Origin: Sistotremastrum niveocremeum HHB9708
Lineage: Eukaryota > Basidiomycota > Agaricomycetes > Sistotremastrales > Sistotremastraceae
DNA: 64,000 nt
Reading direction: 5' to 3'
Assembly (NCBI GenBank): GCA_001630475.1
Contig: KV419439.1
Location: 46,421-110,420, forward strand
Made by a program: the position numbers and the translations under genes. Within the stretch, counting starts at the first letter, position 1. Each line of letters starts with the position of its first letter. This document shows, in pieces, positions 13,541 to 62,774 of this stretch. The notes under the pieces are model-generated. The model made no database searches. It saw nothing but the letters and a program-made list of their open reading frames with translations, and was not told the DNA's origin.

Positions 13541-13837
13541 ATAGAGGAAACCGCTGAAGTCGGTTCAAACTCCGCTCGCGCTCTCCTCTTGCCTCGACAT
13601 TCCTCGTCGACGACACTGCACTATCATCGTCCACAACGCGTTGACGACCCTCGTTTTTCTCAAAACTGTTGAAAAAGTGCGTGTTAATCTCATTCCGTCT
13701 TTTACTGCACAAAAAACGCGTTGTAGGACTCCATCTCACCTCCCATGAGTGTCGTATGGGCCACCCAACCGCCCCAGCTCTCCATCAAAACCATCCTACC
13801 CAGTTGTCCCATCTCTTTACACTCCTAGGCACTCGTT

Positions 13838-13947
13838 GTGGGCAGACTAGTTCAAGGACGAAATCTCACTGTTCGTGAGCAGACTAGTCGGAGGACGAAA
13901 TCCCACAAGGGTGCTGTGAGCAGACTAGTCTCTGGACGAAATCTCAC
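13838..13947 (+). repeat. Three 32-bp hairpin-forming repeats
   Basis: Units at 13838-13869, 13875-13906 and 13916-13947 fit the pattern GTGRGCAGACTAGT, four variable bases, then GACGAAATCYCAC. Each can close an outer GTGRG/CYCAC stem (one G-T wobble in the first unit, one A-C mismatch in the second), with a small inner GTC/GAC stem in unit 3. The 3' arm of unit 1 can instead pair with the 5' arm of unit 2 across a 5-nt loop. Spacers are 5 and 9 bp. Conserved single-stranded-like blocks (CAGACTAG, ACGAAAT) between variable positions suggest a structured RNA or protein-binding site. It does not look coding. Confidence 0.6.
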
Positions 13948-14487
13948 AGCATTCGGCCGAAGAACCCATGACCAATGTGGTGCTGATACAGGCCATATTG
14001 GCGAGAGAAGCCTCCGTCCGCCAGACCCTGCAACTCTGGATGTACGCGGTTATCCTCATGGTGTATTGAAGGTGGTGCAGATGGGTAGGATCTCATGAGC
14101 TGGGGAAGGTATGTCTTATTCCTATTTCTTCTACGTGTCCCCTGCCAATCCACCGTGCTGTGCTGATCAGGATACTTAGATATTTATTTTGGCTTATCAG
14201 TATTATTCGGCGACGAGGACAGCAAGGTCTAACCGGTGAGGTTTCATATATTGTTATCTAGGCTACATCATTGATCACAATATTAGAATCAGAACAACGT
14301 TTGGAAACGTAAGTTTGAATATTAGAACATAGAATATTGCGTAGATCATAAGAGTAAAGTAATTAAATAATAAATATATTATTTTACACCCGCATTATCC
14401 AAATGGGAGAGGTCATGACACTCCATTGCGTGACAAATTGCCTTAAATGGCAACCCCGATGTTTCGGGGAGCCATCCGAGTGCCCGA

Positions 14488-14514
14488 GAGCAGACTGCAA
14501 ACTGCAGTCTGCTC
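14488..14514. repeat. Perfect 12-bp hairpin upstream of the island's first gene
   Basis: GAGCAGACTGCA, the loop AAC, then TGCAGTCTGCTC. With one bulged G the stem extends by CCGA/TCGG to 16 pairs. It lies 85 bp before the first ATG of the island and shares GAGCAGACT with the hairpin repeats at 13.84-13.95 kb. It may mark an element end or be a transcription or RNA-level signal. Confidence 0.7.
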
Positions 14515-14598
14515 GTCGGAGTTCGAAAAGACCGCGTGTGCTTAACGCCCTCGACATCGGCGACGACAACTGCAATCTAAGCTTCGTGAAATAACAGA

Positions 14599-16078
14599 AT
14601 GAGTGATATGTGAGCAGCTATAGTCTATAGACCTTATCAAAACATGACTTAGACTGTTCAACCGCGCTTCAGGCCTTTGCATGCAAACTCTGGAGCCATT
14701 TCTCTACGTGCTCCTCAACCGCTGGCTACTGTTCGCGCTCAAAAAGACCAACCAGATGAGCAAAGTAAAGCTATCTGGACACACTTTTCTGAGGGAAAAG
14801 CCGAACAAATCACTCAACTCATGCTGGTCTTGAACTCTCCCACCGATCTCATCCCCTCTGCCCCTATCTCAGACAACGCTGCCTTTGAGGACTGTGTCAA
14901 TGACCACAGAGTGTCTTGGGACTCTGCAGGCCTGGAACAGGTCCATTCTTTGCTGTTGAGAGCTGTCAAACGTTATCGGTTGCTCTCTCCGGACCTTGGA
15001 AGCCCGTCGACATCCACCAGGAACCAAACTAAAGAACAACAAGTCTCACTGGACTCGATCTCTCAGATTCTCACCCCAGGCATAGAGAAGGCATTGCTTG
15101 TTGGCATTTTGGATCGTTTGGAGATTGTTCAGACTGGCTGGACCCCACAATCTTCTCAATATCCCCAGAACTCTGTGGAGCAGAGGGTGACGGACGACGT
15201 CTACAACCAATGGATTGTGCCACTTAAGAAAGAAGCTGAAGGCCGCACCGATCTCTCCACCCAGGACTGGGCAAGAAAATTCCGCTCAAGTCTTAAGGCA
15301 ACAGCAGATAAGAAAGCGGAGACTCCTGTTGTTGGTCTCAACAACGTCATCAAATCTATTGTCCTGGCTGTTGAAGCTGCCCAGGTCGAAAAGAGCGTCT
15401 TCTGCAACTTCTGTGTGGCTGCTTTGGGCTGGCTCTGGCTCTGCCTTGAAACAGATGACCAAAGGACCGAGTTTTGCAAGTACGTGTTAATAGTCAAATT
15501 CCCAGTGTCACATTTTCTCAACAGAAACAGACAAGTCAATGGAGAGGTCCAACACTCCCATGACTGGTTTAAACCTGATAAGGCAGCAGCTAATACACTC
15601 AAGAGCACGCCCATCACCTTTTTGAAACCAGTGTTGGCTATGCTGGCGTATGGCCCCAACGTCCTGTTGTCTAAGACACGTTTGACTGAGGGACGAGAGT
15701 CCTTTAGAACGCTGGTTGTGGTGTGTATGATTTAAATTAAGAGCAAGGTGACTAATTTGATAAATTTAATTTCCTCAGGATTACATTGCACCGCTACATA
15801 GACCTGGTTTATTCCAGGCTCAGCTGGACGTCCTGTTGCTCAATATGGTGGTGCATATTGCATGTGCTGGGGCTGGTGTCTTTGATGCTGACTGGAAGCG
15901 GATTCGAGAGTGGGGCGCCAAGCTTGAAACCCACAAGCAGGCACAAGGAGAGCCCTGGGGCTGGAAAAGGATTCCCATAACATGGCAGCCGGTTTGGATC
16001 TCTATTTTGTCTGCCTTTTACATATATCTGAGCAACGATTACAGGAGACACCACGGCAGCGTATTGTCGAGGTGGTGA
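14599..16078 (+). CDS. Unknown protein, first gene of the island (about 437 aa)
   Basis: Exons 14599-14609, 14673-15479, 15525-15720 and 15779-16078 join in frame to 437 codons. A tiny first exon supplies MSDM, which then continues PLHANSGAIS; without it the long second exon has no ATG. I recognise no domain. The middle has a Cys-rich hydrophobic run (SVFCNFCVAALGWLWLCL) and the end is Trp-rich. The stop codon overlaps the start of the JmjC-like gene as TGATG. An alternative splice from about 15990 to the acceptor at about 16043 would read straight through into the next protein in frame, so the two may be one fusion gene. No homologue is seen elsewhere in the window. Confidence 0.7.
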
Positions 16079-18290
16079 TGCCTAGTACGGGAGCCAACAA
16101 CAAGCCACAAGGGAGTACAGCCACTGCAGCCAAGCCAAAACAGGGAGCAAAGAAGAAATCCGGCGATTCGGAGCAGACCCAGGTGTCAAAGAAATCGAAG
16201 AAACCCAAGAAACCCAAAAACACAGTCAATGACAAAACCCCAGAACAGGAGGATGAAGAGGATGATCAGGAGAAAAGTGGCGATTATGTTGCTCCTATAG
16301 CAACCCAACAAGGTCGACGTCTGGGAACCCACTCCAAATCCAGATTTCCTTCACCTGGTCCATGGCCTGATATTTCGGACTACGATATGCACCCCCCATT
16401 TGCTTCTCTTGATCCAGTTCCTGATTCTGAGGATGAGACGGATGATAAGGTAAGCCCTCATTTGCTGCAATGACATTCTCTCACAATTACAGGCCGTGTA
16501 TGACATATATAAACAAATCCCTCATCACTGGCCAAAGGACAAATGTCATGCGATGCATCGGGCATATCTGATTGAACACAATGACTACTGGACATTGTCC
16601 AAGCTCCCCATTAGATACTGTCAAAAAACGGTGAGTGAGATTGTTTGGCTTCGAGTGTTTCTAACGTGTCACGTTAGGAACCTGCCCTTGTACAGCTGGA
16701 TTCAATGTTGACAAGATTTTTCCTCAAACCCGCAATGAAACCGCTCACTGACCGGCCATTTGGGATACGCATGATGACAGACGACCAGTGGTGCAAGTTA
16801 AATTTTGCTGAATCAAGCAAGGTGCTGGTTGATAAAACGCTGCTCATCTGTGGCCAAGGATCTAGGGAGCCTGAAACAGATGGTGATCCTCTGGCTATTC
16901 TTGAGCAAAATTTTCATTTGGATTTGTTGGCAAACAGGGAAGTTTCCAGTGCGTTTCATCCTTCTCAGAATGTACATCAGAATGAATTTGTCTGTCAGAT
17001 TTGAAGCTTCAACATTGGGATGAGATCAGGTCCACTCGCTCCACTTCTATTGAAAGTGAGGATGAGGATGAGGTACCTCACTCCGAAGATATGTTGCAGC
17101 AAGCTTGCTTGAAACGTCTTAACAGCAAGCATCATATTCTCAATTTTCTTGATTTGCCATCACAAGAGAGATTCCCCATTCCAGAGATCCTTCTGTATGG
17201 CCTTTTCCTGCTCTACAGTATTGTGCTGATTTTATACAGTGCAATGGTTGATATACGCAAAGCAGCCACTTTTGGTCCCCAATACCAATGCAAAGTCACA
17301 GGCAAAGTGTCCTTTCTCATGGCATCCACCGGTGGTGCATACACAGACTGGCATGCTCATGGAAATGGTGTCTACACATGGTACTATGTGTGTGCTGGGG
17401 CTCTGGTTCTCTCCATCAAGACCCGTTCAGGAGCGGAGGAGAAGGAGGCTCAGACAGCCAAGGAGCAGACAAAAGTAGAGGATTCGCAGACAGCCTCACT
17501 GTCGGTCAATGATCATATGTAAGTTCAAGTAGTATATTCAAATCCTCAACTGACCAGTCATACTATTCAGTATTATCCCACCAGGTGGCATACATCGCAC
17601 CTTCACAATTGGCACAAGTGTATGCAAAGGAGGCTTCTTTTATCTTGCTGATGGATTTGAGCTGACGTTGGACGCTATGCTGGAGGAGCACTTTGATTTG
17701 GACATGTGCAATGGCACTGATCCGACCCTCACTGTCCACCTGTTGATGCTTTGGCGGTATTATTCAGAAATGTGGGACCGGGACAACAGAGAGTTAAATG
17801 GTATGTTCACCCCTTTTTGTGAAAACCAAAACTCAGACAACATGTGATAGAGCGTCTACCAAAGAGTTCCTCCTTTGCTGCTCTATTGGTGATCATAGAG
17901 TATCTCCGCCTCCTAGTCCCAAAGTTGGATCCGACCTCGGCAACACTCTATTGGCCAAAAGGTTATGTGCAAGATCGTGCTGCTGTGCAACAGCTTCTCC
18001 TCAAGTGGATACAGAAGTTAGACCCCACTGATGCACGCAACGCTGATCTTCTGCAGAAGTACAAGCGCAAGAAAGCAGAAGTCCATGAACGTCTTCAGAA
18101 GGTCCCAAAGAATCAGCATCAACAAGATCTCTGGGATGAGTGCGATCCCCGCAAGGACGTTGAGCGATATTTCTGTACGGAGGAGGAGCGCATCACAGCA
18201 GAGAAGAAGGGTGAAAGCTTGGAACTGTCCCGTTTTGCTGATGTTAAGTTTACTGTTGATCATGCGTTGACTTTGCCTGTGCTAGATTGA
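16078..18290 (+). CDS. JmjC-like protein of the island (about 641 aa)
   Basis: Exons 16078-16449, 16493-16630, 16678-16948, 16999-17194, 17240-17518, 17571-17800 and 17851-18290 sum to 1926 nt in one frame. The N-terminus is Lys/Pro-rich and acidic (disordered, likely nuclear). The core resembles KDM2/PHF8-type JmjC domains: VSFLMASTGGAYTDWHAHG, then VYTWYYVCAGALVLSI, then after a charged insert IIPPGGIHRTFTIGTSV and GGFF. JmjC proteins use Fe(II) and 2-oxoglutarate to hydroxylate or demethylate proteins; the usual HxD iron pair is HAH here, while the distal His (GGIH) is kept. Activity is therefore uncertain. The intron at 17195-17239 is inferred from context. It follows the preceding gene with overlapping stop and start, so it could also be the 3' half of a larger gene. 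Confidence 0.7.
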
Positions 18291-18747
18291 TGTATTGATT
18301 ACTGTGTTCATTGCTCAATAATTCACCATCTTGTTGTACGTCTGACAATGAACTCCATGATCACGTCATCAACCAATCCAGGAGCAAAAATGACAAGGCA
18401 AGGTTCTGATGGGCAGATGTGCCTGAACAAGGGTCAGTGTCATCTCCGGACTGATCGGTACTTGTTACAAGAATAAATAGACCCTTGCCTAATTTATCCA
18501 GGGCAGCTTTCCATCCGACATCTCCTTGGCAGCGTTTGCCGGCAGGCAAGGCTCGGGCTCCTCATCAATCAGACTTCTCTCAATAACAGCACCGGCCATC
18601 CTAAATAAGGTATGGCACACTGACCATTCTTCTCTGGGCATCGGCCGAACAAACACAAGGGGGTCACCTCAGGCCCCTCTCATAAAAAGTCGCAATCGTC
18701 TTGACGCAAAGGTGGTGGTCTTCTGCACTCTGATTTCCTTTGCCAAT

Positions 18748-19699
18748 ATGTCTAGCCAACCTCTGAACTCCAGCTATAATGCGCTCTCTGGTGTACATTT
18801 CTATGCTGTGGCGCGTGGCCGTGTCCCAGGCATATATCACACCTCGTACGTCTCCCTGTTGTCATTTTTCACCGAGCTGGCTTATATCAGATATTGCAGG
18901 GAAGAGGCCCGTCAGCAGACAGAGGGATTCTCCAGGGCTTCCTGGAGGCATTTTGTGACCCGTGCTGAGGCTGAGGAATATATCAGAGTCAACGGCGACA
19001 TTAGTGAGTGACTGTGAATTGATGACTTATTGCTAAAAACTGACGGAAGTGCGAGCAGTGCCGAGAGCAGCTAGGGCCATGTCCCCTTCAGCTGAGCAGT
19101 CCTCAACTGCCAATGGCCAGCTTGTCGACTCTCCTTTGCCCCACCACTACAATCTATCATCTCAACCTGACCCAGCCAGTCAGGCCCTCACTCCTCCCCC
19201 ACCAGCTCAGCCCCGGGCTTATGCCTCTGGTGGCCTGTACATTCGTCCTGTGGCAGCCTCTCCCGGCCCCTTCAGTGCACACCCCGACAATGTCCATTCC
19301 CCATCGTCTCTGCGCACCTCTCAGCTGAGCTTCCACAGCTCTATCCAGAGTATGTCCTCCGGAGAAGCAGCCCTCTGGACTGAATCTGCCCCCTCTGTTC
19401 GTGTCAGGCAAGAAGACCAGGAGGAGGCCCCACCTGTCCCCCAGATCCGTATGGCCCCCCCTCGCGCGTTGACTGCCATTCCTGGCATTTCTCTTGCTCA
19501 TCATTTCCTTCCATCGGAGATGCGTCAGTATCTTGCACTCCATTGTTGGACCCCTGAGAGCGCTATCATTGTAGCTGGTATCCTCGTTAAGGCCAAGACT
19601 CTTGCTGACTTCTTCAATGCTCTCATTGATGCAGGGATGTATAAGGGGGAGGCTAGCTACTTCACCGATATTTCTAAGGACTTTATTGGTAAATTTTAG
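18748..19699 (+). CDS. Protein with RNase H1 N-terminal (viroplasmin-type) domain (283 aa)
   Basis: Exons 18748-18845, 18891-19003 and 19059-19699 join in frame. Residues about 15-60 read FYAVARGRVPGIY, then EEARQQTEGFSRASWRHF and RAEAEEYI. This is the pattern of the small domain at the N-terminus of eukaryotic RNase H1 and of caulimovirus protein VI, which binds RNA/DNA hybrids or double-stranded RNA. No RNase H catalytic domain follows; instead a long Pro/Ser-rich linker leads to a C-terminal helical segment (about 160-210). In basidiomycetes this small domain is common in proteins without an RNase H core. Its presence beside an integrase suggests a nucleic-acid-binding accessory role, which is inference. 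Confidence 0.7.
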
Positions 19700-19885
19700 T
19701 AGAACATTTTCTTCGTACTGCAAAGCCTTTTCTTGTGTTAAAAGACGGTTTTGATAGATGCCTAGTATGTAGACTCTTGAGTTGTGTAGTCACATGTACT
19801 CGATGGTCATTATGCATCATGTTTCAACCACTACCCCTGCTCGCATTTGCGTGAATCAGAACATTGTATATAAGTCACAAGTAAA

Positions 19886-22094
19886 TCAATGCTCCTCCAC
19901 CTCACTGTCTTCCTCACCCTCATCCATAGTCAGCTCAGTCATCAAGTGAAGCCCACGTATCCACTGTCGGGCCCTGGGCTCCCACACAGCAGTTGGTAGA
20001 AGCAGCTTCTCTGCTTTCCTAGCTACCTCAATGGTAATATGAGGGTCCCAAGCAACATAATTATCGTCTGTCTCCAGAAGTCCATAATCTTCTGGAGTGC
20101 GGTCCTCTTCTTGTGCCGCATTAACCAGGTTGCCAAAGTCTGCTATTATTTCTTCATCTGGAAAAGGGCACACAAGACGGGGCACGTGTCGTCGCCCAAT
20201 GTTGAAGATGTTTCTTAAATTTGATACCTCGGCGTTTTCTTCTTCAGCATCTGTCTCTGTCTCACTACATCACAGCAATGAGATAATGGTCAAGAGTGGT
20301 CATAGAGCTCACCTTTCCGAACCACTGTCATCTTCAGAATCAGATGGCGGATCAACCCCTTGCTGGGCCTCAGGTGCTGCCAGTGCCCCAAAATATTTGC
20401 CCAAAATCGAACGGTTGTCAGACAAGAACTCATCATCATGCACCTCCAGGTGATATCCATGTTTCAAAATCCCCAGAGCACGGAGATCCTACAAAGCATT
20501 TAAGAAATAGAAGAAGTGCAGGCAAGAAACTTCTGAAAAAATTAGACCTACTAATTGTACTTTTGAGTGCTCTGGAGTACTAAAAAGTACTCAAAAGTAC
20601 AATTAGTAGGTCTAATTTTTTCAGAAGAAGCAGACATACAGCTGGTGATCCTTCTCCGGTTGAAGTACCAGAAATTGGGTGGTGGTTCCACATTGCCTGG
20701 AAGTCTGTGCATGCGTCTTGTATGTCACTCAAAAAGAGAAAGCTGATCAACCAGATATGATGTGGATTTTTACGATCCAAGAAGAAGCGCTCTTCTAAGC
20801 GGAGGAAGAAGGCCTTCCATCCCCTGGCAAACTGACTCCCAACCTCACGCCACAAACGCTCAATGCGTGTATTATGTGTGGACCTGGGGTCATTTTGAGC
20901 AGGATTCATTATAATACAAGGCACTCACGTTCCAAAGATGTAAGAGGCTCTATTTGGGCCCCGGACTTGAATCATCTCCCGAGCGACCTTGATGTTTTCT
21001 CCCCCCCTATCACCTCGTACTCTTGATGGCCGACCATAGGTGTTTATTGCACCATGGAATACATCCAGCACTTGAGCGCTGGAGTTTGTGGAGCTAGCAA
21101 CAAGGCCAACAATCTAATCAAGGATCAATATTGTGCACCAGAACAAAGCTGTAAGTGACTCACAGTCCGACAATAAGCATCTATCATGCCATGGATGACA
21201 ATCCCAAAGATGATAAGTTTGTGATGTCCATCCATGCTCCAAAGAGCATTAGGGCGCTTCACATGATAGTCCCTCCTAGCAATAGCATTTCTCCGTCTGA
21301 GCTGAACTCCCACCCCATCTACCCGGTGCATGCAGGCTATCAACCTGCGTCTCTGAATACGCAAGCCTTGAGCACTGATAAAGCCCCGCAGATATCTGAG
21401 TCCAGAGTTCGGTCGTGCCTCTCGAAACTTGTTGAATAGGGCATCAATCTCTTGGTCACTAATGACTGTGAACTTCTTGTCAATGCCGTACTGACGCATG
21501 TATTTGCGGAGTGTCTTCCTGTTGACATGAAGAACATTGGCAAGTTGTTGAATAGTGATGCGCTTGCTGGAGGAGAAGGTGTTCCGTATCACAGCTTCAT
21601 CTATGACCTTGGCTGGCCTTCCTCGCCTCCCAGTCCGATGAATGTGAATGCTTTGGATATGACCTATCTTGCGATCCTCCCTTGATACAACATTAAAATG
21701 GACGGAATCTCTGGCACACAAAATCTTACCGACTGAGTGTGGCCCTGGCAGCATCAGTTAGCCGACCTTGCATTTGCAGAAAGGCTTCTGCCATGTGTTC
21801 CTCCCATTCAGCGTTATTCACTTGGACCACAAGAGCAGCTATCAGATCTTCATGAGCTTTAAATTGCTGATTTGCGACCTGAAAGCGAAGTGGATCTGTA
21901 TCCTCTTGTGACAGCAATCTGGATCCACGCTCCCATGACTCTTTGATCAGAGCGTAGCCTTCTAGGACGGCTTGAGGTTGATTGGGAGGTAAATCAGGTA
22001 GTTCAACATCATCATCTTCTTCAGAGCTTTCCTCAGAGCCCTCCTCAGAGTTAGGCATGTTCGTGTGAGGATTGGATCTCCGAACGGTTTCCAA
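19886..22094 (-). CDS. DDE integrase/transposase, IS3-like eukaryotic type (about 621 aa)
   Basis: Six exons on the minus strand (22094-21730, 21680-21164, 21113-20929, 20883-20640, 20488-20313, 20264-19886) give one frame. An acidic N-terminus precedes a helix-turn-helix (ITIQQLANVLHVNRKTLRKY), then an IS3-type HTH_21-like segment (NSGLRYLRGFISAQGLRIQ). The rve core follows: LWSMDGHHKL (Asp 1), FGIVIHGMIDAY, RVRGDRGGENI (Asp 2) and NTRIERLWREVG (Glu). The three acidic residues are all present. The C-terminus is acidic and of unknown role. This family is widespread in fungi and animals and distinct from LTR-element integrases because it lacks the zinc finger and neighbouring reverse transcriptase. 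An alternative start is the ATG at 22058. The fourth intron (20489-20639) is enlarged by a palindrome. It shares a short divergent promoter with the BTB-like gene. Confidence 0.85.
20530..20627. repeat. 98-bp near-perfect palindrome inside an integrase intron
   Basis: The left arm begins CTTCTGAAAAAATTAGACC and continues for about 40 bp; the right arm is its exact reverse complement, with a short central loop around CTCTGGAGTACTAAAA. It sits wholly within the 151-bp fourth intron of the integrase gene; without it the intron would be about 53 bp, the local norm. That points to insertion of a foldback/MITE-like unit. Perfect arms imply it is young or kept identical by gene conversion. No clear target duplication was found. 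Confidence 0.9.
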
Positions 22095-22135
22095 AGACCC
22101 TAAGTCACAAGCGGCGTCTCTTGTCTCTCTCCAGT
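22095..22135. promoter_or_regulatory. Short divergent promoter between integrase and BTB-like genes
   Basis: Only 41 bp separate the chosen ATG codons of the minus-strand integrase and the plus-strand BTB-like gene (77 bp if the downstream integrase ATG is used). The spacer contains CCTAAGTCACAAGCGGCG and a CT-rich run. Coupled expression is inferred from geometry only; the true starts may lie further apart. Confidence 0.4.
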
Positions 22136-23317
22136 ATGATGAGCAACCAGCTTGGCCCCCTCTGGTCGCTTGCTACCTCACAAAGGCATCAAAACCCCCA
22201 AACCCCCACTCCCCATGATCCTACACAGGCAACACCTGCAACCAGCACCCCAGATGGATTCAACATTGGAGAACAAGATCAGCCTATATCGCTTTTCACT
22301 CAGAGTCAAAGAGGTCTCCCTAGAGGACCTCTGGCAAGACGCTCTCCAACCCCAGACAGCCCCCCTCCGTATGGCCCAGCTGAGCGTCATTATATCTACT
22401 ATGAGGAGCAGGACTTGTTTCACATGAGGGTACGTTCCATTGGATTTAATTTACCGGTTGTGCTCATTGCTCTCAGGCTGGTGACCAGCTGTTCCGATTT
22501 CCAGTCAACTGGATCACGGACATCAGTGAGCCACTGAAGCTGCTGGCAAATGTCAACCCCGAGAACTCCAAGGAAGGGAAAAGTGATCGCTACCCCATCT
22601 TCCTTCCTGATGCGCCTGAGGAGTGGGCTGCCTATCTATCTTGGAGGACACGCACAAAGTGAGTATCTTGTTTTAGCTTCCAACCACAATTGATTCCCTT
22701 TTTCCAGCCCTCCAGACACGACTGAACAGTGGCGTCACCTTTTGAACATCAGCCACAAGTACTGCATGGAAGAACCCAAGGCCGACGCCATCCTCGCTCT
22801 TGAGAAGATTGGCGACTTCCCTCTCAGCACCAAGCTCCAGCTTTGCAGCCAATATCGCATCACTTCTTGGTTCTTGCCCACCCTTTCCGCATTCCTCGCC
22901 ATTCCCAACAAGGACTACACCCCAGAAGATTTTATCAACCTTGGAGAAAAAATGCATGGCATTATCCAGCTCAAAGGCGCGCTTGACTACTTCTACAAAG
23001 AGCTCCTCAGCAACACCTTCGAGGTCCTCCATCTCTGTGATACCTCTGAAGAGGAGGACTGTCAGGCCGATTGGAACGCATTTTTTAATGAGATCATTGC
23101 TCTCATGTGTCATCCAGACCAGCCAATACGCGGCATCGAAGCAGAGAAAGTTCTCCAGGCCAAGACCGAGGATTGCCGTCTCTGTTTCAGGATGGGACGC
23201 GACTCTATTGTTGACAAGGGGATCCTAGTCCAAGATCGAGAAATCTTGATCGCAGGGGTGGGGGCTATCGCCGAGAGCTTTGGGTTTGCCGCTGCCGAAT
23301 TTCCTGATATAGAATAG
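22136..23317 (+). CDS. BTB/POZ-like domain protein of the island (361 aa)
   Basis: Exons 22136-22429, 22477-22658 and 22708-23317 join in frame. A Pro/Ser/Thr-rich N-terminus (about 1-85) is followed by a stretch resembling the BTB fold common in basidiomycetes: QLFRFPVNWITDISEPLKLL, DRYPIFLPDAPEEW, YLSW, then HLLNISHKYCMEEPKADAI. The rest is helical with several Cys. BTB proteins pair with themselves or with cullin-3. The match is by pattern only; the exact family is uncertain. Two adjacent ATGs (22136 and 22139) are possible starts. Confidence 0.65.
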
Positions 23318-23553
23318 TGCTTCTGCTGTATTAGCGTAAATGCTTCTGGTCTAAAATGGTTGCCTTGGTCCTGAATCTAGATCTTGATTTTTAAGCGAGT
23401 GTGACAGCGCCACTCAGATTCATTTTCCGGCTTTGTCGGACTTGTCGGAGTGTGGTTGAAACCAAAGCATCGTCAAAACCAACTTCCATTTTCTGTCCGT
23501 AACCCCAACTTGAATTGCCCAACTGCACTCTGTCTTTACTGCCAAGCCGCCCT

Positions 23554-24909
23554 ATGTCTGTCACTTCCACACCCGTTCCTGCTGTCAATGACACTGTCAA
23601 CACCACAACTGTGGACCCCAACCCAGCTGTTGAAAGTGACACCTCCAACGCAGAAGCTGCTCTGTACACTGTCACCGTTGGGGAGAAGGCAAAATCCAAG
23701 AAGACCCGTAAGCTGGGATCAAAAAGCTCTACCTCTGAAGCTAGAGAGAGGTGGGACAAGTCCAAAGAGATGCTTGCCGCCAAGCTTGCCAAAAAGAATA
23801 AGAAAAAGGCATGTCGTTCTTTTTTTGAGCCTCCATGTATTAATTTTTCAACAGAAGAAAGCTGTTGAGGCAGGCGACGCTGAGATTCAGGAGATCAAGA
23901 TGAAGGAAGTGGATCGTGTTCTGCTGTTCCCTTGGGCGGTATGTTCTCTCATTATCACACCTTAATGCAGCACTCATATTGACGCAGGAGGAAGACCCGG
24001 ACCCAAACAAGGTTTTACTCTCACCTACTGGCATCAACCTGCTTGGCCGCCACCGCTTGGTCCACAAGCTGGACAATGGCAAGCGTCTTCTTCTTGACAC
24101 CTCAGCTTCGGCTATCCAGCTGGCAAACTGGTTCATAGCCTTGTTCCCAGAGGCGCGTGACTGGCTACTGGACAACTATACCCTTCCAAATCCAAATGCC
24201 CTCTCTCTCTTACGTCCTGCGAAGCGCTTTGGAACACTTGTGGACCCGGTCCCACAAGACGTGGAGTTCACTGCAGCTCATTTCCTGGCCACTAATCGCG
24301 CTCCGTATGTTCTGGTCATGCGTAAGCATTCTTTCTTTACTGACGGCATCAATCTGAGTCATCCTCAAGGACCTTATCAAACCATCCCCCGGGATGTTTG
24401 GGAACAGTTTGGGGTCGAAGCTGGTTCTGCTAAAGAGAAAGCAGTTGAGGACAATGCTGTCGCTGGTATGTTGATTTTCAGGACCCCTGCACCAAATCTC
24501 ACCAAGCCCAGGGCCATCTCATACCACGGACACAGCCAAGGACGTCAAGTCTGACAAGGAATTCATCATTGTTGACAACATGGACGCTTCTGATGAAGGC
24601 GAATATGTTGGCAGTGACGCTCCAGAGTCAGAGTCCTGCTCCGACATGGATGTTGAAGATGATGACGACCTTGGTGAGCCTCAGGCATCCACCTCTGCTG
24701 GAAAGAAACGCGCTTCTGTCCTTGAAGTGGTTCTCCCATCCAAGAGGCCACGCTTCAAAGTCCCAAGGGCACCCACCCCATGGCGTCTCTCTCTCACCCC
24801 CCCTCCTCTTCCTCCTCCTATCCCTGCTCCTGAGCCAGTCATCACTCAGCGTCGTCATGCTAGAATCGTCATTCCCAAAGCTGTCACCAAGCGCAACCCT
24901 TTTGCGTAA
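23554..24909 (+). CDS. Unknown charged protein, last gene of the island (about 404 aa)
   Basis: Exons 23554-23808, 23855-23938, 23988-24465 and 24512-24909 sum to 1215 nt in one frame. The first intron appears to start with GC (AAG followed by GCATGT), a rare but real donor type. The N-terminus is Ser/Thr-rich then Lys-rich; the centre is a globular region (LLSPTGINLLGRHRLVHKL, later AIQLANWFIALFPEARDW); the C-terminus is acidic, then carries basic KRPRFKVPRAP and a Pro-rich run, suggesting nuclear localisation. I recognise no family. Without the last intron the frame would end at 24554. Confidence 0.65.
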
Positions 24910-25918
24910 CACATTCTTTCACTCCTTTTCCTAACCCATTGCTTCATTGCTTCACATCACCCACCTTTTTCTCTTCCCTTCTGTTTCAATTGTTACGTCT
25001 TTCATAGACACGGACATCACACATTTTTATTCGCTGTTTATATTACATTGATCATTAGTTGTCATTCGTTTAGCTCCCCCATCCAACCAACGCTCCTCCT
25101 TTTGTGGCATCATAATGCCTCGCTACCTCCCCTCTGATTAGATAGAACAGGACCTTTATAATACATTTTGTTGCTTGCATGGTTTGAGTTTTGCTGTACT
25201 GAGATGCCAGAAAATGCGGTGAAAAACATGACATCACAAGGGACTGGCCACGTATCACTCACTGTGCCTGGTCGGGCAGGGCTCGAGCACCGACTAAAGT
25301 CACTAAACTTGCAGATCAGATCTCAGGGCCAGTAAAGATCCAGAAGGCTCAGGATCAAGGGCGGCACTTTTCAGCCATCAGCGCCACACAGGGTCATCAC
25401 TCTGTAGGTTCCCGGAATTGTCGCACTGCAACCACCGCCGGGCTGTGCCTTGGCCGCTTAGCAACCCTGTGTATATTTGAAATCATTTACTTTTCTGAAT
25501 TTGACCAGGCAACCATTAATCAAAAAAACATGAATTTGGGTGTGATGACTGCGACTCCGACTTGTGAGCCCTTGCAAGACAGGTGAACAGTGCAAAGCCC
25601 AGAGTGAAAGACTGTACATGTTGCATGGGCTGAGACTGTGGACTGCACGTCTTGCAACTCCAAGTGAGAGCATGATCCTTTGAAAATGTTGCCTTCTGTA
25701 TGAACAAAATTATGGACCCCCAAGCTCATGTGGCGCTGACTTTGAGAGGCTGTTGAACAAATTTGGTGTGTGCAGGCAGGTGAAGATTTGACAAAAACTT
25801 GTGTGCGTGTTGCAAAGCGGGGGTCTGAAAAAATTCATCACGCGCACTTGAATCCATCACGCGCGGGTTGCAAACCATTGCCTCATTTGGTAATTCTTTG
25901 GCGTGCGACGTGCAAAAT
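24910..25918. other. Gene-free right margin of the island
   Basis: About 1 kb without a supported exon. It has several G/T-rich words (GTGTGCGTGTTGCAAAG, CATCACGCGC repeated twice near 25850) that might be the end of the island, but no inverted partner was found on the left side. Confidence 0.4.
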
Positions 25919-27298: not shown

Positions 27299-27807
27299 TA
27301 GTGTTCCAAGGTCCAGTTGCCGTGACCGGTGGCAACCGGCAGTCGCGACCGGACCGTGACCGGACCGCGGTTGCCGGTTGCCTAGGATCTTGGAAAATCA
27401 GGCAACCGGCAACTGCAGTCATGACCGATCGTGACCGTGGTTGCAACCGAGGACCCTTAAGGGTCCCCAACCAGGGTACCCAGAGGGTATTTTGGGTCCC
27501 AAATGGGCATTTATAGTGACATATCTGGTATATATTGGTCTCTATATGCATGTACCACATCATATAAGGTGTATATACAGTATATATAATATAATAATGA
27601 ATAAAATATTGATAAAAGACCATTTGTGACTGGAAAAACTGGCCATGACTGGTTGCGCAACTGGTCGCAGCCGTGACCGGTTGCCGGACCGCAACCGCAG
27701 TCGCAGTTGCCAGTCACGCAAAATTTTGGACGGCAACCGGACCGGCAGTTGCCAGTCGCACCCTCTGGGGGACAAAAGTCCAGTCGTGACTGGACCTCAG
27801 AACACTA
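27299..27807. mobile_element. Complete hAT-type MITE (509 bp)
   Basis: Ends are TAGTGTTC, four bases, then GGTCCAGT, against its inverse CTGGACCTCAGAACACTA, giving TIRs of about 18 bp, flanked by perfect ATTCAAAC octamers. The inside has two GC-rich arms full of GCAACCGG/CCAGTC words and an AT-rich core, and no gene. Related partial copies lie at 1-418 and about 12068-12207. It needs a hAT transposase acting in trans; the full hAT at 4943-10184 has a different TIR and may not be its source. Confidence 0.93.
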
Positions 27808-27815
27808 ATTCAAAC
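27808..27815 (+). repeat. Right 8-bp target duplication of the MITE
   Basis: Exact copy of ATTCAAAC (27291-27298); the F-box coding frame resumes from it. Confidence 0.95.
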
Positions 27816-30313: not shown

Positions 30314-31556
30314 ATGGCTCTCCCGACGAAAAACGCCTCCTCTTTTGGCATTCGCATTCTGTCCCTAGGTTGATGAGTTCCGTCTCTTGGAGAGTTGTTC
30401 ACTACAAATTGACATGGTCGCGTTCTTAGATGGCGGCGGGATTCGGGGATTATCCGAGATCCTTACCTTGCAAGACATTATGACGACTATCAAGGAGAGA
30501 GAGCATCTGCCATCGGTTCCAGAGCCGTGGCAATATTTCGACCTCATCGGGGGAACAAGCACCGGAGGGTATGGACATTATTACATTCTGTGGGTTCGGA
30601 TGACTGACACCTTCCAAAGAATTATAGCTTTGATGCTAGGACGACTCAAAATGCCCTTGAAGGAGGTCGAAAAGGTCTATATCGAATTTGGAAAACATAT
30701 CTTTTCCTGCAAGAAGACATTCGGCGAAGGAAAATTCAAGACAAGTGTTTTTGAGGAGCGGATCAAAGAGATAGTGAAGCGAGTGACTACGGACCATAAC
30801 CCCGACACTCTCATGAAGGATGAGGATCATGTCGGACCTAAAACGTGCGTTGGTTTTGAGCATTAGCTTGGTTCTCAGAACACTATTCCTTACGTCGGGT
30901 TATGTTGCAGGTTTGTCTGCGCTCTCCCTGCTGCCAATATGGAGTTGCCACGCCTTTTCCGCACATACAAGAGTCAAGAAGTCGACTCTTTCAATTGTAA
31001 AATCTGGGAAGCAGCACGTGCAACGTCCGCAGCTCCGACATTCTTCAAGCCCATGGCTATCGGGCTAGATGGCGCGAAAGAAGAATTCATTGACGGCGGC
31101 CTAGGATTCAACAACCCTACGGAGCTTGCGATTACTGAAGCCAAGGAACAGTTCCCTAACATGCCGATTTCGTGCATCGTTAGTCTTGGGTCAGGAAAAC
31201 CTCCGCCTATTGGACTTCCAAAAGCCGGGATCATCGAGAGGTACTTTCCTCTCAATACCGTTCACGCGTTGAGAGCTACGACACTTGATACTGAACGTGT
31301 TGCTGTCCGTGTCGGAAGCCAAAGTGGGAGAGCCGGTTTTCGGTTTTTCCGCTTTAACGTGGAAAAGGGTTTAGAAAACGTCGGCATGGATCAATGGAAG
31401 AAAACCAGTGAGATTATCACTCACACAGTGACTTATCTGAGCAACGAGCAGCGGCGTGTCGAGATGACAGCCGTCGCCGAGATTCTGACTCAGAGTCCTG
31501 TCTACTCAATGGAACAGCCTTCGCTTGTAGATCCAGTCCCTGTGTATCAGTATTGA
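30314..31556 (+). CDS. Patatin-like phospholipase (354 aa)
   Basis: Exons 30314-30368, 30430-30568, 30620-30844 and 30911-31556 sum to 1065 nt in frame. Patatins are Ser-Asp lipid acyl hydrolases. The oxyanion loop DGGGIRG is formed across the first intron (LSL then DGGG), the nucleophile elbow is GGTSTGG, and the second dyad residue lies in FIDGGLGFNNP. Length matches a stand-alone patatin domain without the NACHT or TPR partners found in fungal NLR-like proteins. No signal peptide, so cytosolic. The first donor is GTTGAT, an unusual one, supported by the identical junction in the paralogue just downstream. Confidence 0.9.
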
Positions 31557-32618
31557 TCATCCGCTGTGATTCTTTTCTGATTGGTTCAATGTGTATATAT
31601 TACCTGAGTGATAGAGCCAATAAAGGGTCGAAGTCTTGGAGTACGGACATAGCGGACATAGCGATCTCTAATGGAGTGCGTGATCACACTCGATCAGTAA
31701 TTCCTCAAACAATATCATGTTTTAATTCTTTCGATCCATGGTATTGTCTCACACAGCAGATCCCATCAAGCAGGTTTGCTACTAAATTGCTACCTAGTCT
31801 TGGCTCAGAATCGTATTAACTTGAAGTTCTACCTGACCTGCCAATGCAACACCAAGATTGGCCTGACGAGACCGCAAGACATGAGTGCGTCGGCTGCGGA
31901 GATCACGCTGACAACTTCGATGCCATACCACGCCATATTCACTCATCTGCGAAAGGGATTACACCAGTTTCGATCGCCGTACTGCTTCAACAAAGCCAAC
32001 CAGTGCATTGATTGTCAGGCTGGCGGGGCCAGTCATGCTAGCAGCAAACTGCACACAGCACACCGAAGAAATGATCGGCCTCCGCAGTTTCTCTGTACCC
32101 TTAAGCAGCCGAGCAGTATCACAAAGAGCAAGTGATATTCTTTGAATGAAGATCCTCGAGGCAGCCGTACAGTTTCTAAGGCACACGTTTCCTGATCCTC
32201 TTGATTCTGATGACACAGATCGCAAGCCTGCGCTAACACGATGGAATCGTTCACAGCTCATCCGAATTGATCCTGGAGTACCCTCTTGACACACGAAAGA
32301 TCAAGGAGCCGACAATGTCCCTCTAGGCTCTCGCATTGCAACCTTCATAAGCAGTGAGCCGTTCGCGTGCTTTTGAGCATCCATGAGTATTGTGAACCCC
32401 TTGAACGATATCCCAACGCATGGTGCTGTATTAAATTAACCCGCACAAGCGGCGGTTTCTGGACGGCTTTACCAGGTTGAATTGTGGAGTGCGTGAACCT
32501 TCACGCCAGGAGAAACGCAAAGGCGACGTCTTTTAAGTGAAGTCAGGCGCAGAAGTCCGCTCCAAACTACTCGGACCCACCCCACCCTTGACTATCTTGC
32601 CGAATATCTCAGGCTTAT
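31557..32618. other. Spacer between the patatin paralogues
   Basis: About 1.06 kb. Short frames only; no exon with recognisable character, no repeat ends seen. Confidence 0.5.
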
Positions 32619-33821
32619 ATGGCGTACGACTCAAATGTCTCGAACGGACTCCGCTTGTTGTCGCTAGGTATTCCACTTGTTTATTGCTTGATTGGCCATT
32701 AAATTTGCCTTACTCTCTTTAGATGGCGGCGGTGTGCGAGGTTTATCAGAAATCCTGATTCTGGAGCAGATAATGAAGGGCATCCAAGACCGAGAACACC
32801 TCGACGTACCGCCCGAGCCCTGGCAATATTTTGACCTCATCGGGGGGACGGATGCTGGAGGGTAAAAAAACCTCTATCCCGTCAGGAGGCTCATGATAAC
32901 CTTGAAGGAATTATAGCATAGTGGCTCTGATGATTGGACGACTGAGGATGTCCCTGCAGGACGCGAAACAAGCTTATCTCGCACTGGAGAAGAAAGTTTT
33001 TTCGGCAAGGAATTTCTTTGGCGAAGGGAAATTCAAAGCCAGCGTATTCGAACAAGAGGTCAAACGAGTGGTGCAAAAGAAAGAGACAAGCCCCGAAGCC
33101 AAAATGATTGATAACTCGAATCAAAGTACTAAGACGTATGTTATTGAATATATTTCTGTACGAAGAAGCATACACTCACGAAATCACCTTTTTTCCTAGT
33201 TTCGTCTGTGCTATCCCTGCCGCCGACATAACTACCCCACGACTCTTCCGTACCTACGCCGTAGGAACTCGAGAACCCTTTGACTGCACGATCTGGGAAG
33301 CAGCTCGTGCGACCTCTGCGGATCCCACACTGTTCACTCGTATCCGCATCGGCGAAGATGGGCATGTTGAGGACTTCATAGACGGAGGCCTAGGGTTCAA
33401 TAATCCCGCCGAACTCATTCTGGAGGAAGCCAAACGGCTCTTCCCAGATCGATCATTGGCATGCCTTCTCAGCATTGGGGCGGGCAAACGAGCAGCGATC
33501 AGGCTGATGGAGCCAACCTTACTACAGAAGGCATTTCGAAGACGGCGGTTGCCCAGCGCCCTGAAAGCCACTGTTAACGACACTGAAGGTGTCGCTGAAC
33601 GCATCAGCAAAGAATCCACAAAAGTAGCCTCGAGCTTCTTGTACTTCCGCTTCAACGTTCAGTACGGGTTAGAAGACATCGGGTTGACGGATTGGAAGAA
33701 GATGAATCTCATTTTCACATATACGAATGCGTATCTGCAACAGGAGCGTCATCTATTGAGTTCCGCCATTGAGATCCTCACATCGCGGCCACGGGATATG
33801 GGGGTTCCTAGCTTACTTTAG
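32619..33821 (+). CDS. Patatin-like paralogue lacking the catalytic serine (342 aa)
   Basis: Exons 32619-32667, 32723-32861, 32917-33135 and 33200-33821 sum to 1029 nt in frame. Intron positions match the upstream patatin gene and the second exons are both 139 bp, so this is a tandem duplicate. The oxyanion loop DGGGVRG and the dyad motif FIDGGLGFNNP are kept, but the nucleophile elbow reads GGTDAGG instead of GGTSTGG: the serine is replaced by Asp. It is therefore predicted not to hydrolyse lipids by the usual mechanism, although the frame is otherwise intact. A non-catalytic binding or regulatory role is possible, or early decay. Confidence 0.88.
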
Positions 33822-49170: not shown

Positions 49171-49248
49171 GGACCTACAAGTGTACACATATCTTACGCA
49201 TGTCGGTTAATTCGAGTCACCTGCAGCTATCACTCTTCCTTTGAACTC
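49171..49248 (+). promoter_or_regulatory. Conserved leader with upstream ATG, copy 1
   Basis: GGACCTACAAGTGTACACAT, ATCTTACGCATGTCGGTTAA, then TTCGAGTC is nearly shared with the leaders of the two paralogues (59650-59733 and 62299-62385, minus strand). The leader contains an ATG (ATGTCGGTTAAT) opening a short upstream frame that here stops just before the main ATG at 49249. Such an upstream frame can damp translation; that is inference. Confidence 0.6.
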
Positions 49249-51430
49249 ATGAGGTCTTTTTGCCCTCTGTCAGAAAATGCTCTCCGTCTCGATCATGGCG
49301 ATCACAACGTCCTCTCGAACTCATTTAATCCGTTGCACCAATGTATCCTCCCCACAGCGATTCTGTGGCAGATAGTCCGTTATCTCTCGCCATCAGTGAC
49401 CTTATCTCAAGATCAAGAACATTTTTGCTCTCCTCGACATCCATGCTGTCTTGCTCGTCCTGCGATTCAAATGTTTTTGCCGCTACGGCTAGTCTGCCAC
49501 AGCTTCAACCTGATGTGCCGCATTCTACTCCCACAATTCACGATAGAGGAATCTTGGTGGCCAAAATTACGGACCATTCATGAATGGCGTTCGTTACTAT
49601 CAATCGTTTCCGAGAAACACTTTGAAGGCCGATACCGACACTTCCTCGTGTTGAATGGTTATGATCCGTTTGATTGGGAGGATGGTTAGAACACTATCGC
49701 ATTCAAGCCAGGCCTCTTGTATCTGACGTATGATTTGCTATAGATCAAGAAGGCTGCTCTCTCGCTTACGACACCGGGACATCTATCGGATGCGATAAAT
49801 CGAGCATGCCTCTAGTAGTTATCAAGGTTCTCAAAAGAGAAACGCCTTTCAATGACGAGCGTGACTCTTACCTTGCCATTCATCGTGCAGGGGGTACACA
49901 TCACTCCTCGGGGTTTGCTGAAATGCTGCATCATGATCAATTTCTTGCGGTCCGTTGCGGAGGGTTCCCCAGATCCAAAGCTGCGTACGATATACTACTT
50001 CGTTCTGCAATATCTGGGTCCGACTTTGCATGACGTTCTCGTGTCGTCTCACTACGGAAGATTCACGTCTAAGATGACGATGGCAGTGGCAATTCAATTG
50101 GTGAGTCGACTGTTGGTTGGAGTGTGAGAACGAGACTTTGCATGCTCACAATTTCCCGTGTACATTATCAGCTTCGTCGACATCAGACCCTGCACTCAGT
50201 GAACCTCATTCATAACGGAGCCAAGCCAGCCAATTTCTGCTTACCTCCTGGGCCCTTCGATTCTTCTCAGCCCTGCCCTGATCACTCAGTATTCACGATT
50301 GATTTTGGTTTCTCCTCCTTTTATACGCCTCCGCCGGACGGCGAAGAAAAAGAAAAGGACTGGGCCACAGCAAATCGGTACTTTCGATCGTTGAGGAGCG
50401 AAGGTGGATATAGTAAGTCCGAGATCGCCGAGAAGACAAAATCGTACAGGACCTGATAGATCACGTTCTAGGCGTATCACCCAGGGACGATCTAGAAAGC
50501 CTGACTTACGTGTTGGCTTTTCTGAGCAAAGGCATGTTACCTTGGCATTGTGGACTGTCCAATCTCGACTGGAAATGTCCAGCGGCTAAGGAAGATGCAA
50601 CTGGTGATATGATTTTTAAGGGAATGGATCCGGTGTATCAGTGGCTTTTCGAGACCTCACGAGCACTGAAATGGGGAGCGCTTCCGGACTATGACAAGAT
50701 CATAGCTAAGTTCTCGGAAAGATGGATTGAGAAAGGATTCGGGCCTAATCCCGGAGAATTTAACTGGTGGATTCCTTCCGTTAACGAAGATACCGGAACC
50801 GATCACAAAGAGGCGAAAGATCGTAGATGGCTTTTTCATGGCTGGCGTGTATTTACGCCGAGAGAAACAGATGACCATGACATCTACGAGCCACCAATTC
50901 CTTCGCCACACGACGTAGTGTTGCCTATCGAAGACGAGGAAGAAGTGATCTTTCTATGGCCAGAGAAAAACAGGCTTCCAAAGCCCGACGCTGAAGAGCG
51001 TCTATACCTTCGCCATGGGATGTCAGCACTCGACATCCCCCTTCCTCCCACAGTCGCAGACGAATGGAAGTCCCTACAAGTTCCTTGCTATGCGGTGTCA
51101 TACCCACCGTGGGGGAAGTTCTCTGTTTCCTTCTATGAAAGGTGGGAAATATACACGGAAAAATATTTCGAAGCAATGGCGGCATTTTACGATTTGGACG
51201 AGTTTCAGATGCCACCCTCGTGGAGTCCGTACGGCGAGGCATTCGAAAGACAGGCTCTGCCTAAGTCGGATGTTGAAGAACTCATGTTCTTGAATTTCGA
51301 TGGCGACGATAGCGCGATTCCTATGGCATGTCGAGCCCCTTTACCTTGTCCCGACTTCGCAGAGTATTTCTGGTTCTTTGTGGACAATTCAGAGGAGGAG
51401 GAAGAAGAACAGAGCGCTGGGGGGTTATGA
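49249..51430 (+). pseudogene. F-box/CK1-like pseudokinase fusion, copy 1 (probable frameshift)
   Basis: The N-terminus (MRSFCPLSENAL) has an F-box-like segment, AILWQIVRYLSPS, a Cys-rich HPCCLARPAI motif and LRLVCHSFNLMCR. After an intron (49686-49743) a casein-kinase-1-like domain follows: VVIKVL (VAIK Lys), LGPTLHDVL, then LIHNGAKPANFCLPP where kinases have HRDIKPDN (the Asp is Gly), IDFGFSSFY (DFG kept) and SPRDDLESLTYVL. A third part, Pro/Trp/acidic-rich, ends in EEEEEEQS. Between MLHHDQ and DPKLRTIYYF (about 49940-49985) the frame changes with no room for an intron, so this copy probably carries a frameshift, unless it is a sequence error. The two minus-strand copies are open here. Confidence 0.72.
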
Positions 51431-54441: not shown

Positions 54442-55433
54442 ATGGGCAACGGTGTACGTCTTGTTCGATTGTGGATGTAATTCAACGTACTCATCCCTCT
54501 ACTTAGGCGCTCCAAGCCAACCCTCCTACCTCTCAGATCGACATCAGCACCCATGGCTCTGATTGGTTGTGGGCTGTCTTTGCAATCATGACCGCCGCTG
54601 ACCTTGGCAGTATGTCCCTATCTCGGTTTCATTCGATCAAGCTAACTCTTCTCTCAGTGATCGGCTGGACTCTAGTTCGCCCTCGTGGTCAACGAATCTT
54701 CCACCAACTCCCCGTTGCCATCATGACCACCGCTGCCATCGCCTACTTCTGTATGGCCTCCGATCTCGGATCCACTCCCATCCCCGTCGAGTTCCGTCAA
54801 GTCGGCGAGACGCGTTCGATCTGGTACGTCCGGTACATCGACTGGACCATCACCACCCCTCTCCTCCTCCTCGAACTCCTCCTCGGTACCGGTCTCTCCG
54901 GCGGAGACATCTTCACTATCCTCTTCTTCGACCTCGTCATGATCATCACCGGTCTCGTTGGTGCCCTCGTCCAATCCACGTATAAGTGGGGCTTCTTCGT
55001 CTTCGGATGCTTCGCCCTCTTCTACGTCTGGTACGGACTGTTCTTCTCAGCTCCTGCCTCTGCCGCCGCCATCGGTACCGATGTTCGAAGCGCATATACG
55101 AGGGGTGCATTCTTCCTCTCCTTCATTTGGGCCCTCTACCCTATCGCATGGGGTCTTGCGGATGGTGCCAACGTCATCTCACCCACCTCCGAGATGATCT
55201 TTTACGGTATCCTCGATCTCATCGCCAAGCCCGTCTTCTGCTACTTCCACGTCTTCTCACTCGCCAACCTCGACTACGGTCGCTTCGGCTTGACCAGCGG
55301 GAAGTTCACGGAAGGCAACTACGCCACCAATGCCGGATATAACGAGAAGCGCGGATTGACCACCACCACTGCTGGTCGTCCTAGCGCCGCTGGTACCGTC
55401 GGTACCGCCGAGACTGCGCCTACTGTCGCATAG
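54442..55433 (+). CDS. Microbial (type 1) rhodopsin, predicted proton pump (296 aa)
   Basis: Exons 54442-54453, 54507-54609 and 54658-55433 join in frame; the first exon codes only MGNG. Seven hydrophobic helices are evident. Helix C reads RYIDWTITTPLLLLEL: in bacteriorhodopsin numbering the acceptor Asp85 is D, Thr89 is T and the proton-donor position 96 is E. Helix G carries the retinal-binding Lys in LDLIAKPVFCYF. Helix F has ALYPIAWGLADG. A DTE triad predicts a light-driven outward proton pump rather than a sensor, in the plasma membrane. The C-tail is Thr/Gly/Ala-rich. Among fungal opsins Asp is the more familiar donor, so Glu is worth noting. Confidence 0.92.
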
Positions 55434-59649: not shown

Positions 59650-59733
59650 GAGCTGTGAGTCGAAGCAGGAGGAAGCGCTGCAGATGACTCGGATTAACCG
59701 ACATGCGTAAGATATGTGTACTATTGTAGGTCC
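59650..59733 (-). promoter_or_regulatory. Conserved leader with upstream ATG, copy 2
   Basis: Minus-strand leader with GACCTACAATAGTACACAT, ATCTTACGCATGTCGGTTAA and TCCGAGTCATCTGCAG, closely matching copy 1. Its ATG (MSVNPSHLQ...) opens a frame overlapping the main start in another phase. Confidence 0.6.
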
Positions 59734-60049
59734 TGCTAAGCCCAAACTAAGTTCCGGGTCGCTTTCGGTGCCGGAAGCAGGCCCGGGCTTTTCGGTCAAG
59801 GGTCAGTCGGTTGCTAGTCGCCTGGAACGTTACCTATTCACTCTGTTTTTTCATTAACAGTGTAAGCACGAGAGAATCAGCTCTTCCGGGTGTTAGAAAA
59901 TCGGATTCGGGAATGAGGTCGAAAAGTTCTGGTTTCGTGCAACGATCATGTCATAAAAAGCTGACTAATCGATGACTCCGGCTATGTCGGTCATCTCGTA
60001 AGACACCTCGTAAGACGAGTTCGTGTATTTCCCTCGACGTCTATTTTTG

Positions 60050-62298: not shown

Positions 62299-62385
62299 GA
62301 GCTCGGTCTTCTCGGAGAAGATGGAATGATTGGAGGAGACTCGGATTAAGCGACATGTGTTCGAGGTGTGTACTTTTGTAGGTCC
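62299..62385 (-). promoter_or_regulatory. Conserved leader with upstream ATG, copy 3
   Basis: GACCTACAAAAGTACACACC, then ACATGTCGCTTAATCCGAGTC corresponds to the leaders of copies 1 and 2, including the upstream ATG, with more changes. Confidence 0.55.
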
Positions 62386-62774
62386 TATTCCCAAACTGAG
62401 CCTCCAATGGACCAGAATCCGGATTCAAAGTCCGGTCCGATGTGAGTCATGACTATAGACGCGCAAAAACGTGCTAACTCAGCGCTCAGCTGCTGCGTAT
62501 CTTTTATCGCTCTTCTAGTTCTACAGGTCAATCTTGTCGGTCAATAGCGAATTCATCTGGTTGTCTGGTCAAAGCTCAACGCAAATCCGCAGACGAGATT
62601 TCGAATTCCTGTCCCTCAGTTTTCATGAATGAGTCAACATACCAGAATTTATCACCACTTCATCAGTTCGTGATAGAAGATGATTTGACATGAGGTTGAA
62701 TTGAGGGGCTATAAGCTCCGTTCCTGCATTCCTGCGTTCCGCAACTCCCGCTCAAGCTCCCGCTATCACTTTCA

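Follow-up and report, generated by a model that had tools for sequence, protein, structure and literature searches.

An element-derived block of integrase, BTB-type and NPFA-tail genes in Sistotremastrum niveocremeum, most likely of the IS3EU type

INTRODUCTION

IS3EU DNA transposons are described as having TA..TA ends and usually a 6-bp target-site duplication (TSD), and IS481EU has been reported from parabasalids (accessible part of PMC10045372). In rusts, IS3EU families that carry TET genes show TAYGG..CCRTA ends, terminal inverted repeats (TIRs) of more than 30 bp, 6-bp TSDs and an alpha-kinase gene, according to the accessible part of PMC12730594. A JmjC protein of fission yeast, Epe1, has an altered iron triad, opposes silencing and is reported to be non-enzymatic (PMC7192584, in part). 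In this work we analyzed a 64,000-nucleotide stretch of Sistotremastrum niveocremeum HHB9708 (contig KV419439.1, positions 46,421 to 110,420; hereafter the window), in which a DDE integrase gene lies at 14.4 to 24.9 kb together with a JmjC-like gene, an RNase H1 N-terminal-domain (RNase H1-N) gene, a BTB-type gene and a gene of an unnamed family whose protein ends in NPFA. With a probability of roughly 75%, we read this block as an IS3EU-type DNA transposon, present as an old copy or a remnant, in which a core of transposase, BTB and NPFA genes is joined by exchangeable cargo.

RESULTS

The genome searches covered 34.7 Mb in 111 contigs, which are cited below as C with a number; the window is C46:46421-110420. 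The window integrase matches PF24764 (rva_4) with an E value of 1.1e-54 and retains the triad D260, D317 and E352, with 34 residues between D317 and E352, which verified the IS3-like DDE integrase with all three acidic residues proposed by the initial annotation. Genome searches, whose counts are lower bounds, recovered at least 67 exon-level integrase matches, and grouping by position resolved these into the window locus, at least 19 other diverged core loci and 2 fragments. The nearest integrase elsewhere shares 64% identity with the window protein over the core, and those of the two complete copies described below share 52% over the core and 46% over window amino acids 108 to 424. The catalytic triad is kept in 12 of 14 aligned integrase fragments, including C94 and C30, and is altered at one catalytic position in C25 (Q) and C26 (S). 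In the integrase tree, the window protein stands beside C62/C14 and C25/C8, joined by a branch with a support of 0.53, while the C62/C14/C25/C8 clade itself has a support of 0.99; JmjC genes are present at C62 and C25, within these tree neighbors.

Two complete copies at unlinked loci, C94:19192-27751 (8560 bp) and C30:199265-208294 (9030 bp), are about 86% identical. Both are bounded by TIRs of about 118 bp with TATGG..CCATA ends, beginning TATGGTGTACCGTAGGG, which agree with the TAYGG..CCRTA pattern and exceed 30 bp; between the two copies the TIRs differ by 14 to 16%. The target duplications are TCCTGGAAG (9 bp) at C94 and AACCCC (6 bp) at C30. The genes of each copy run from an Hsp70-derived gene (PF00012, E values of 1e-105 and 2.1e-98; not shown to be intact) through integrase and BTB to the NPFA-type gene, and the order of the three core genes is that of the window. 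Integrase, BTB and NPFA genes thus make up a real mobile unit in this genome. The initial annotation had envisaged a mobile element with the gene set of the window; this holds for the three core genes, which occur in the two copies bounded by TIRs and TSDs, and gains from the JmjC genes found near integrases at three of five other loci, but it is not supported for RNase H1-N. As a separate observation, a further inverted-repeat pair lies at C94:28259-30465, some 0.5 kb beyond the C94 element, with TATGGGTA.. arms that are equal at 28 of 40 positions.

Between element copies elsewhere in the genome, purifying selection acts on the core proteins. For the C94-C30 pair, the ratios of nonsynonymous to synonymous substitution rates (dN/dS) were 0.093 for exon 3 of the BTB gene, 0.057 to 0.208 for three parts of the NPFA gene and 0 to 0.015 for three integrase exons. 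For the C62-C14 pair, with one part of each gene compared, the values were 0.148 (BTB), 0.151 (NPFA) and 0.112 (integrase). The low values of BTB and NPFA indicate that these helper proteins are kept much like the transposase, while the Hsp70 gene, at 0.329, is held more loosely than the core genes. The C62 copy is decaying, with a stop in its integrase and a miniature inverted-repeat transposable element (MITE) within its NPFA gene.

Relatives of the BTB-type gene occur at nine other loci, and seven of them (C14, C62, C94, C26, C30:205k, C40 and C54) have an integrase in head-to-head orientation. By arithmetic, some 20 integrase loci of a few kb each occupy about 0.5% of the genome, and therefore this pairing is not a matter of chance. 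The C15 relative has no listed integrase. Relatives of the NPFA gene were found at C25, C14 and C62 by search and at C94 and C30 by the reading frames that follow BTB. The window NPFA protein shares 19 to 29% identity with the C94, C14 and C25 relatives; the gene position recurs, and the proteins end in NPFA at C94, C30 and C62, in DPFA at C14 and in NPFLG at C25.

As to the BTB identity, direct Pfam and PDB searches with the family, window protein included, returned no BTB match, and none of the 61 PF00651 matches in the genome falls in the window or on a copy linked to an integrase. Two element copies were compared with BTB, and one gave a weak E value of 0.052 and the other nothing. Columns 113 to 268 of the family, by contrast with these direct searches, align to a C15 host protein (hhalign probability 97.8%, E value 7.5e-13), which itself matches PF00651 with an E value of 1.8e-8. 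The BTB assignment of the initial annotation would thus stand by a bridge through the C15 protein and not by a direct match.

The gene models of the window block (Table 1) were drawn by eye and by homology. The initial annotation had counted six spliced genes with open frames. All spliced frames are indeed intact, and they form five genes of 1125, 283, 609, 361 and 400 amino acids: the lengths of 283 and 361 were kept, the integrase went from 621 to 609, the last gene from 404 to 400, and the former 437- and 641-amino-acid genes merge. These two frames are one gene, because an intron at 15992-16044 (53 nt, GT-AG) joins them in frame, and because in the relatives at C62, C30 and C99 the two halves follow each other on one strand; the apparent stop of the first frame shares one base with the ATG of the second. 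The start codon of the JmjC model is uncertain, and one intron of the NPFA model is GC-AG. Two introns were judged too short to be kept: the 24-nt one of the JmjC model gave way to an intron of 45 nt, and the 16-nt one of the NPFA model to an intron of 58 nt.

TABLE 1 Features of the gene block and its surroundings, in window coordinates
Feature	Position	Strand	Description and basis
Weak candidate left target-site copy, CATTGATCA	14269..14277	.	Element start 14278; end not TAYGG
JmjC-like gene	14403..18290	+	1125 aa, 11 exons; gene model, profile against PDB, alignment, relatives
RNase H1 N-terminal-domain (Cauli_VI) gene	18748..19699	+	283 aa; unnamed C-terminal part; PF01693 and gene model
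DDE integrase/transposase gene	19886..22058	-	609 aa, 6 exons; PF24764 (rva_4) and gene model
Near-perfect palindrome, MITE-like	20530..20627	.	98 bp; inside integrase intron 4
Gap between divergent start codons of integrase and BTB-type genes	22059..22135	.	77 bp; gene models
BTB-type gene	22136..23317	+	361 aa, 3 exons; gene model
NPFA-tail gene, unnamed family	23554..24909	+	400 aa, 4 exons, ends in NPFA; gene model
Weak candidate right target-site copy, CATTGATCA	25046..25054	.	Element end 25045; end not TAYGG

The whole window JmjC-like protein has no significant Pfam match, and its C-terminal part matches PF02373 at an E value of only 0.23. Among five JmjC relatives, the best Pfam hit was PF08007 (JmjC_2) with an E value of 0.0097, in one member only, and none of the 10 matches of a genome search with PF02373 lies at the window locus or at the loci of its relatives. 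A profile built from the five relatives gave 14 PDB matches at E values of 1 or below, all of them JmjC proteins of the KDM2/KDM7/PHF type (best 3n9l, 2.4e-5). The JmjC call of the initial annotation therefore gained a KDM2/KDM7-type similarity through the profile of the relatives, while the window protein itself lacks a Pfam match. At the iron-binding motif, the window protein has HAH...H in place of the HxD...H found in all four aligned relatives, among them C99, where the motif is intact; the second His is kept in five of five. The chemistry of the window protein is doubtful, because HAH for HxD means that one iron ligand is missing. The relatives lie at five other loci (C25, C30:144-148k, C62, C99 and C30:432k), the first three of which are less than 10 kb from an integrase. 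It is probable that the JmjC gene is cargo of the element.

The RNase H1-N domain named in the initial annotation was clearly recovered (PF01693, E value 1e-14, 54.9 bits against a cut-off of 21). Its proposed travel with the integrase was not supported: a genome search with the window protein gave no second copy, and no listed integrase adjoins the sole other PF01693 match, at C19. This domain search had low sensitivity, since it also missed the split domain of the window gene itself. The gene can be called cargo by its position only.

For the ends of the window block, the pair 14278/25045 is a lead only. It scored 26.5, against a maximum of 26.0 among five control region pairs. On a second statistic it reached 29, a value matched by 9 of 3000 random window region pairs, while the true ends of C94 and C30 gave 38 and 32; this statistic is post hoc, because the flanks were picked after the candidate had been seen. 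The best local TIR match (score 31, against 24 to 29 in ten shuffles) was rejected, as it reflects similarity to a MITE end at 27299 and not a TIR of the block. A 510-bp repeat near several integrases was likewise considered as an element terminus and proved to be a dispersed MITE with TAGTGTTC ends.

That MITE of about 510 bp occupies window positions 27299-27808, with ends TAGTGTTC..GAACACTA, and overlaps the end of a long open frame. Its copies at C62 (the one within the NPFA gene), C14 (two) and C8 show 93 to 95% identity, and a partial, diverged relative is seen at window positions 1 to about 425. The 98-bp palindrome of Table 1 has a 99% copy within the C25 integrase gene, apparently in another intron. 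Immediately left of the block, three tandem 37-bp units lie at 13830-13947. Elsewhere in the window there are, at 30369-33818, a patatin-like phospholipase gene (PF01734, E value 3.1e-10) together with a second frame that looks similar by eye, a bacteriorhodopsin-like gene at 54507-55430 (PF01036, E value 1.8e-35), and three similar tandem genes that appear kinase-like by eye (49171-51427, 57525-59802 and 60053-62424).

DISCUSSION

The integrase-BTB-NPFA part of the window block is derived from a mobile element, and the element was most likely of the IS3EU type. From knowledge of the family, the DDE transposase would cut and join at inverted repeats. The 77-bp gap is likely to be a divergent promoter shared by integrase and BTB, as the geometry of the genes suggests, and both proteins would then be co-expressed from it. 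Judging from position and selection, the BTB protein might act as a dimer or oligomer scaffold or recruit a host factor, and the NPFA protein might be a second co-expressed helper. The genes 3' of the transposase would be exchangeable cargo, namely, JmjC and RNase H1-N in the window and Hsp70 in C94 and C30, and the JmjC protein may help by opposing heterochromatin.

Several observations weigh against reading the window block as a transposon copy of this type. Repeated TIR searches around it recovered no IS3EU-like TAYGG..CCRTA pair with a TSD, which speaks against an intact element in the window; the alignment of flanks proposed in the initial annotation defined termini and target duplications at C94 and C30 and none recognizable here. 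The 1.1- to 1.2-kb flanks match nothing else in the genome, in a search that skips very common words, and no second copy of the full set of JmjC, RNase H1-N and core genes was found in the genome. TIR searches around the JmjC-bearing copies found none for any of them. The C99 JmjC gene has no integrase in the 8.5 kb examined (C99:10001-18500) and none is listed on its contig, and the C30:432k relative is far from any listed integrase. The C25 locus is rearranged, and about 21 kb separate its integrase from BTB and the adjoining NPFA gene. The NPFA proteins of the window and C94 share only 20% identity, and the C94 duplication is 9 bp, not the 6 bp usual for IS3EU. Without recognizable ends, the window copy is at present probably unable to move by itself, and as its JmjC protein also lacks one iron ligand, the copy may be old, immobile or domesticated. 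We regard it as a locus derived from an element and not as a proven element; its integrase keeps an open 609-amino-acid frame with an intact triad and is related to the TIR-bounded copies.

Domestication is the first rival, in which the host retains, as a resident cluster, IS3EU-derived genes that have lost their termini. It would account for five intact frames without recognizable TIRs, for flanks without other genome matches, and for a window triad that is intact when the closest integrase is 64% identical over the core. However, the selection was measured only between element copies elsewhere, and the window JmjC protein has lost a conserved iron ligand; we regard domestication as unlikely. 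The second rival is a chance neighborhood, in which JmjC, RNase H1-N and BTB genes of the host happen to lie next to a single integrase. It draws on the abundance of BTB (61 PF00651 matches), on JmjC not being rare (10 matches) and on the lack of a second copy of RNase H1-N or of the full window set near an integrase, but it is very improbable overall and in our reading refuted for BTB and NPFA, because the head-to-head order recurs and the TIR-bounded copies contain the same three core genes. For RNase H1-N by itself it may yet apply.

Compared with these rivals, descent from an IS3EU-type transposon, as an old copy or a remnant, remains our preferred reading, and chromatin-type cargo in such elements is plausible. 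By analogy with the TET/JBP-carrying fungal transposons (PMC12730594, in part), a counter-silencing role of the JmjC protein is plausible, and so is the suggestion of the initial annotation that the element manages its own silencing, with the reservation that the window JmjC protein lacks one iron ligand. A more speculative picture, which we consider doubtful, would make IS3EU of the mushroom lineage modular: a divergent promoter would drive transposase and BTB within a conserved transposase-BTB-NPFA core, and this core would be joined to a cargo bay that catches chromatin and stress genes; JmjC would be a counter-silencing weapon parallel to TET/JBP, and the window demethylase would have turned into an Epe1-like non-enzymatic anti-silencer.

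That such elements can capture genes is seen from Hsp70 in the C94 and C30 copies. Should our findings be borne out in other fungi, they would define which partner genes are maintained by selection together with IS3EU transposases, and the idea that DNA transposons bring along histone-modifying JmjC genes to counter silencing, as has been suggested of TET/JBP genes, could be put to the test. A search of titles and abstract beginnings in the open-licence part of PMC gave, among the matches listed, no description of a transposon combining an integrase with BTB or JmjC, which is weak evidence of absence, and a term count in the main text of PMC12730594 gave 0 occurrences of the words BTB and JmjC.

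Among known systems, IS481EU and IS3EU/GingerRoot share with the elements described here a transposase core related to IS3/IS481, but the accessible part of PMC10045372 mentions no comparable gene cargo for them. Kyakuja/Zisupton and other TET-carrying DNA transposons of mushrooms are, similarly, DNA transposons of Agaricomycetes with an oxygenase gene; according to the accessible part of PMC12730594, they differ in belonging to another transposase superfamily and in carrying TET/JBP, not JmjC. Epe1 resembles the window JmjC protein in its natural substitution of the iron triad, but it is a host gene with His changed to Tyr, whereas the window protein has Asp changed to His, and the part of PMC7192584 at hand mentions no transposon link. 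Lastly, there are the fungal IS3EU families with TET/JBP, as far as the accessible part of PMC12730594 describes them: a DDE transposase, TAYGG..CCRTA TIRs longer than 30 bp (C94 and C30) and, at C30 but not at C94 with its 9 bp, a 6-bp TSD are common to both, and both are multigene elements with an oxygenase thought to act against silencing. Where those families have an alpha-kinase partner and TET/JBP cargo, the elements of S. niveocremeum, including the window copy without TIRs, have BTB and NPFA as core partners and JmjC, RNase H1-N or Hsp70 as cargo.

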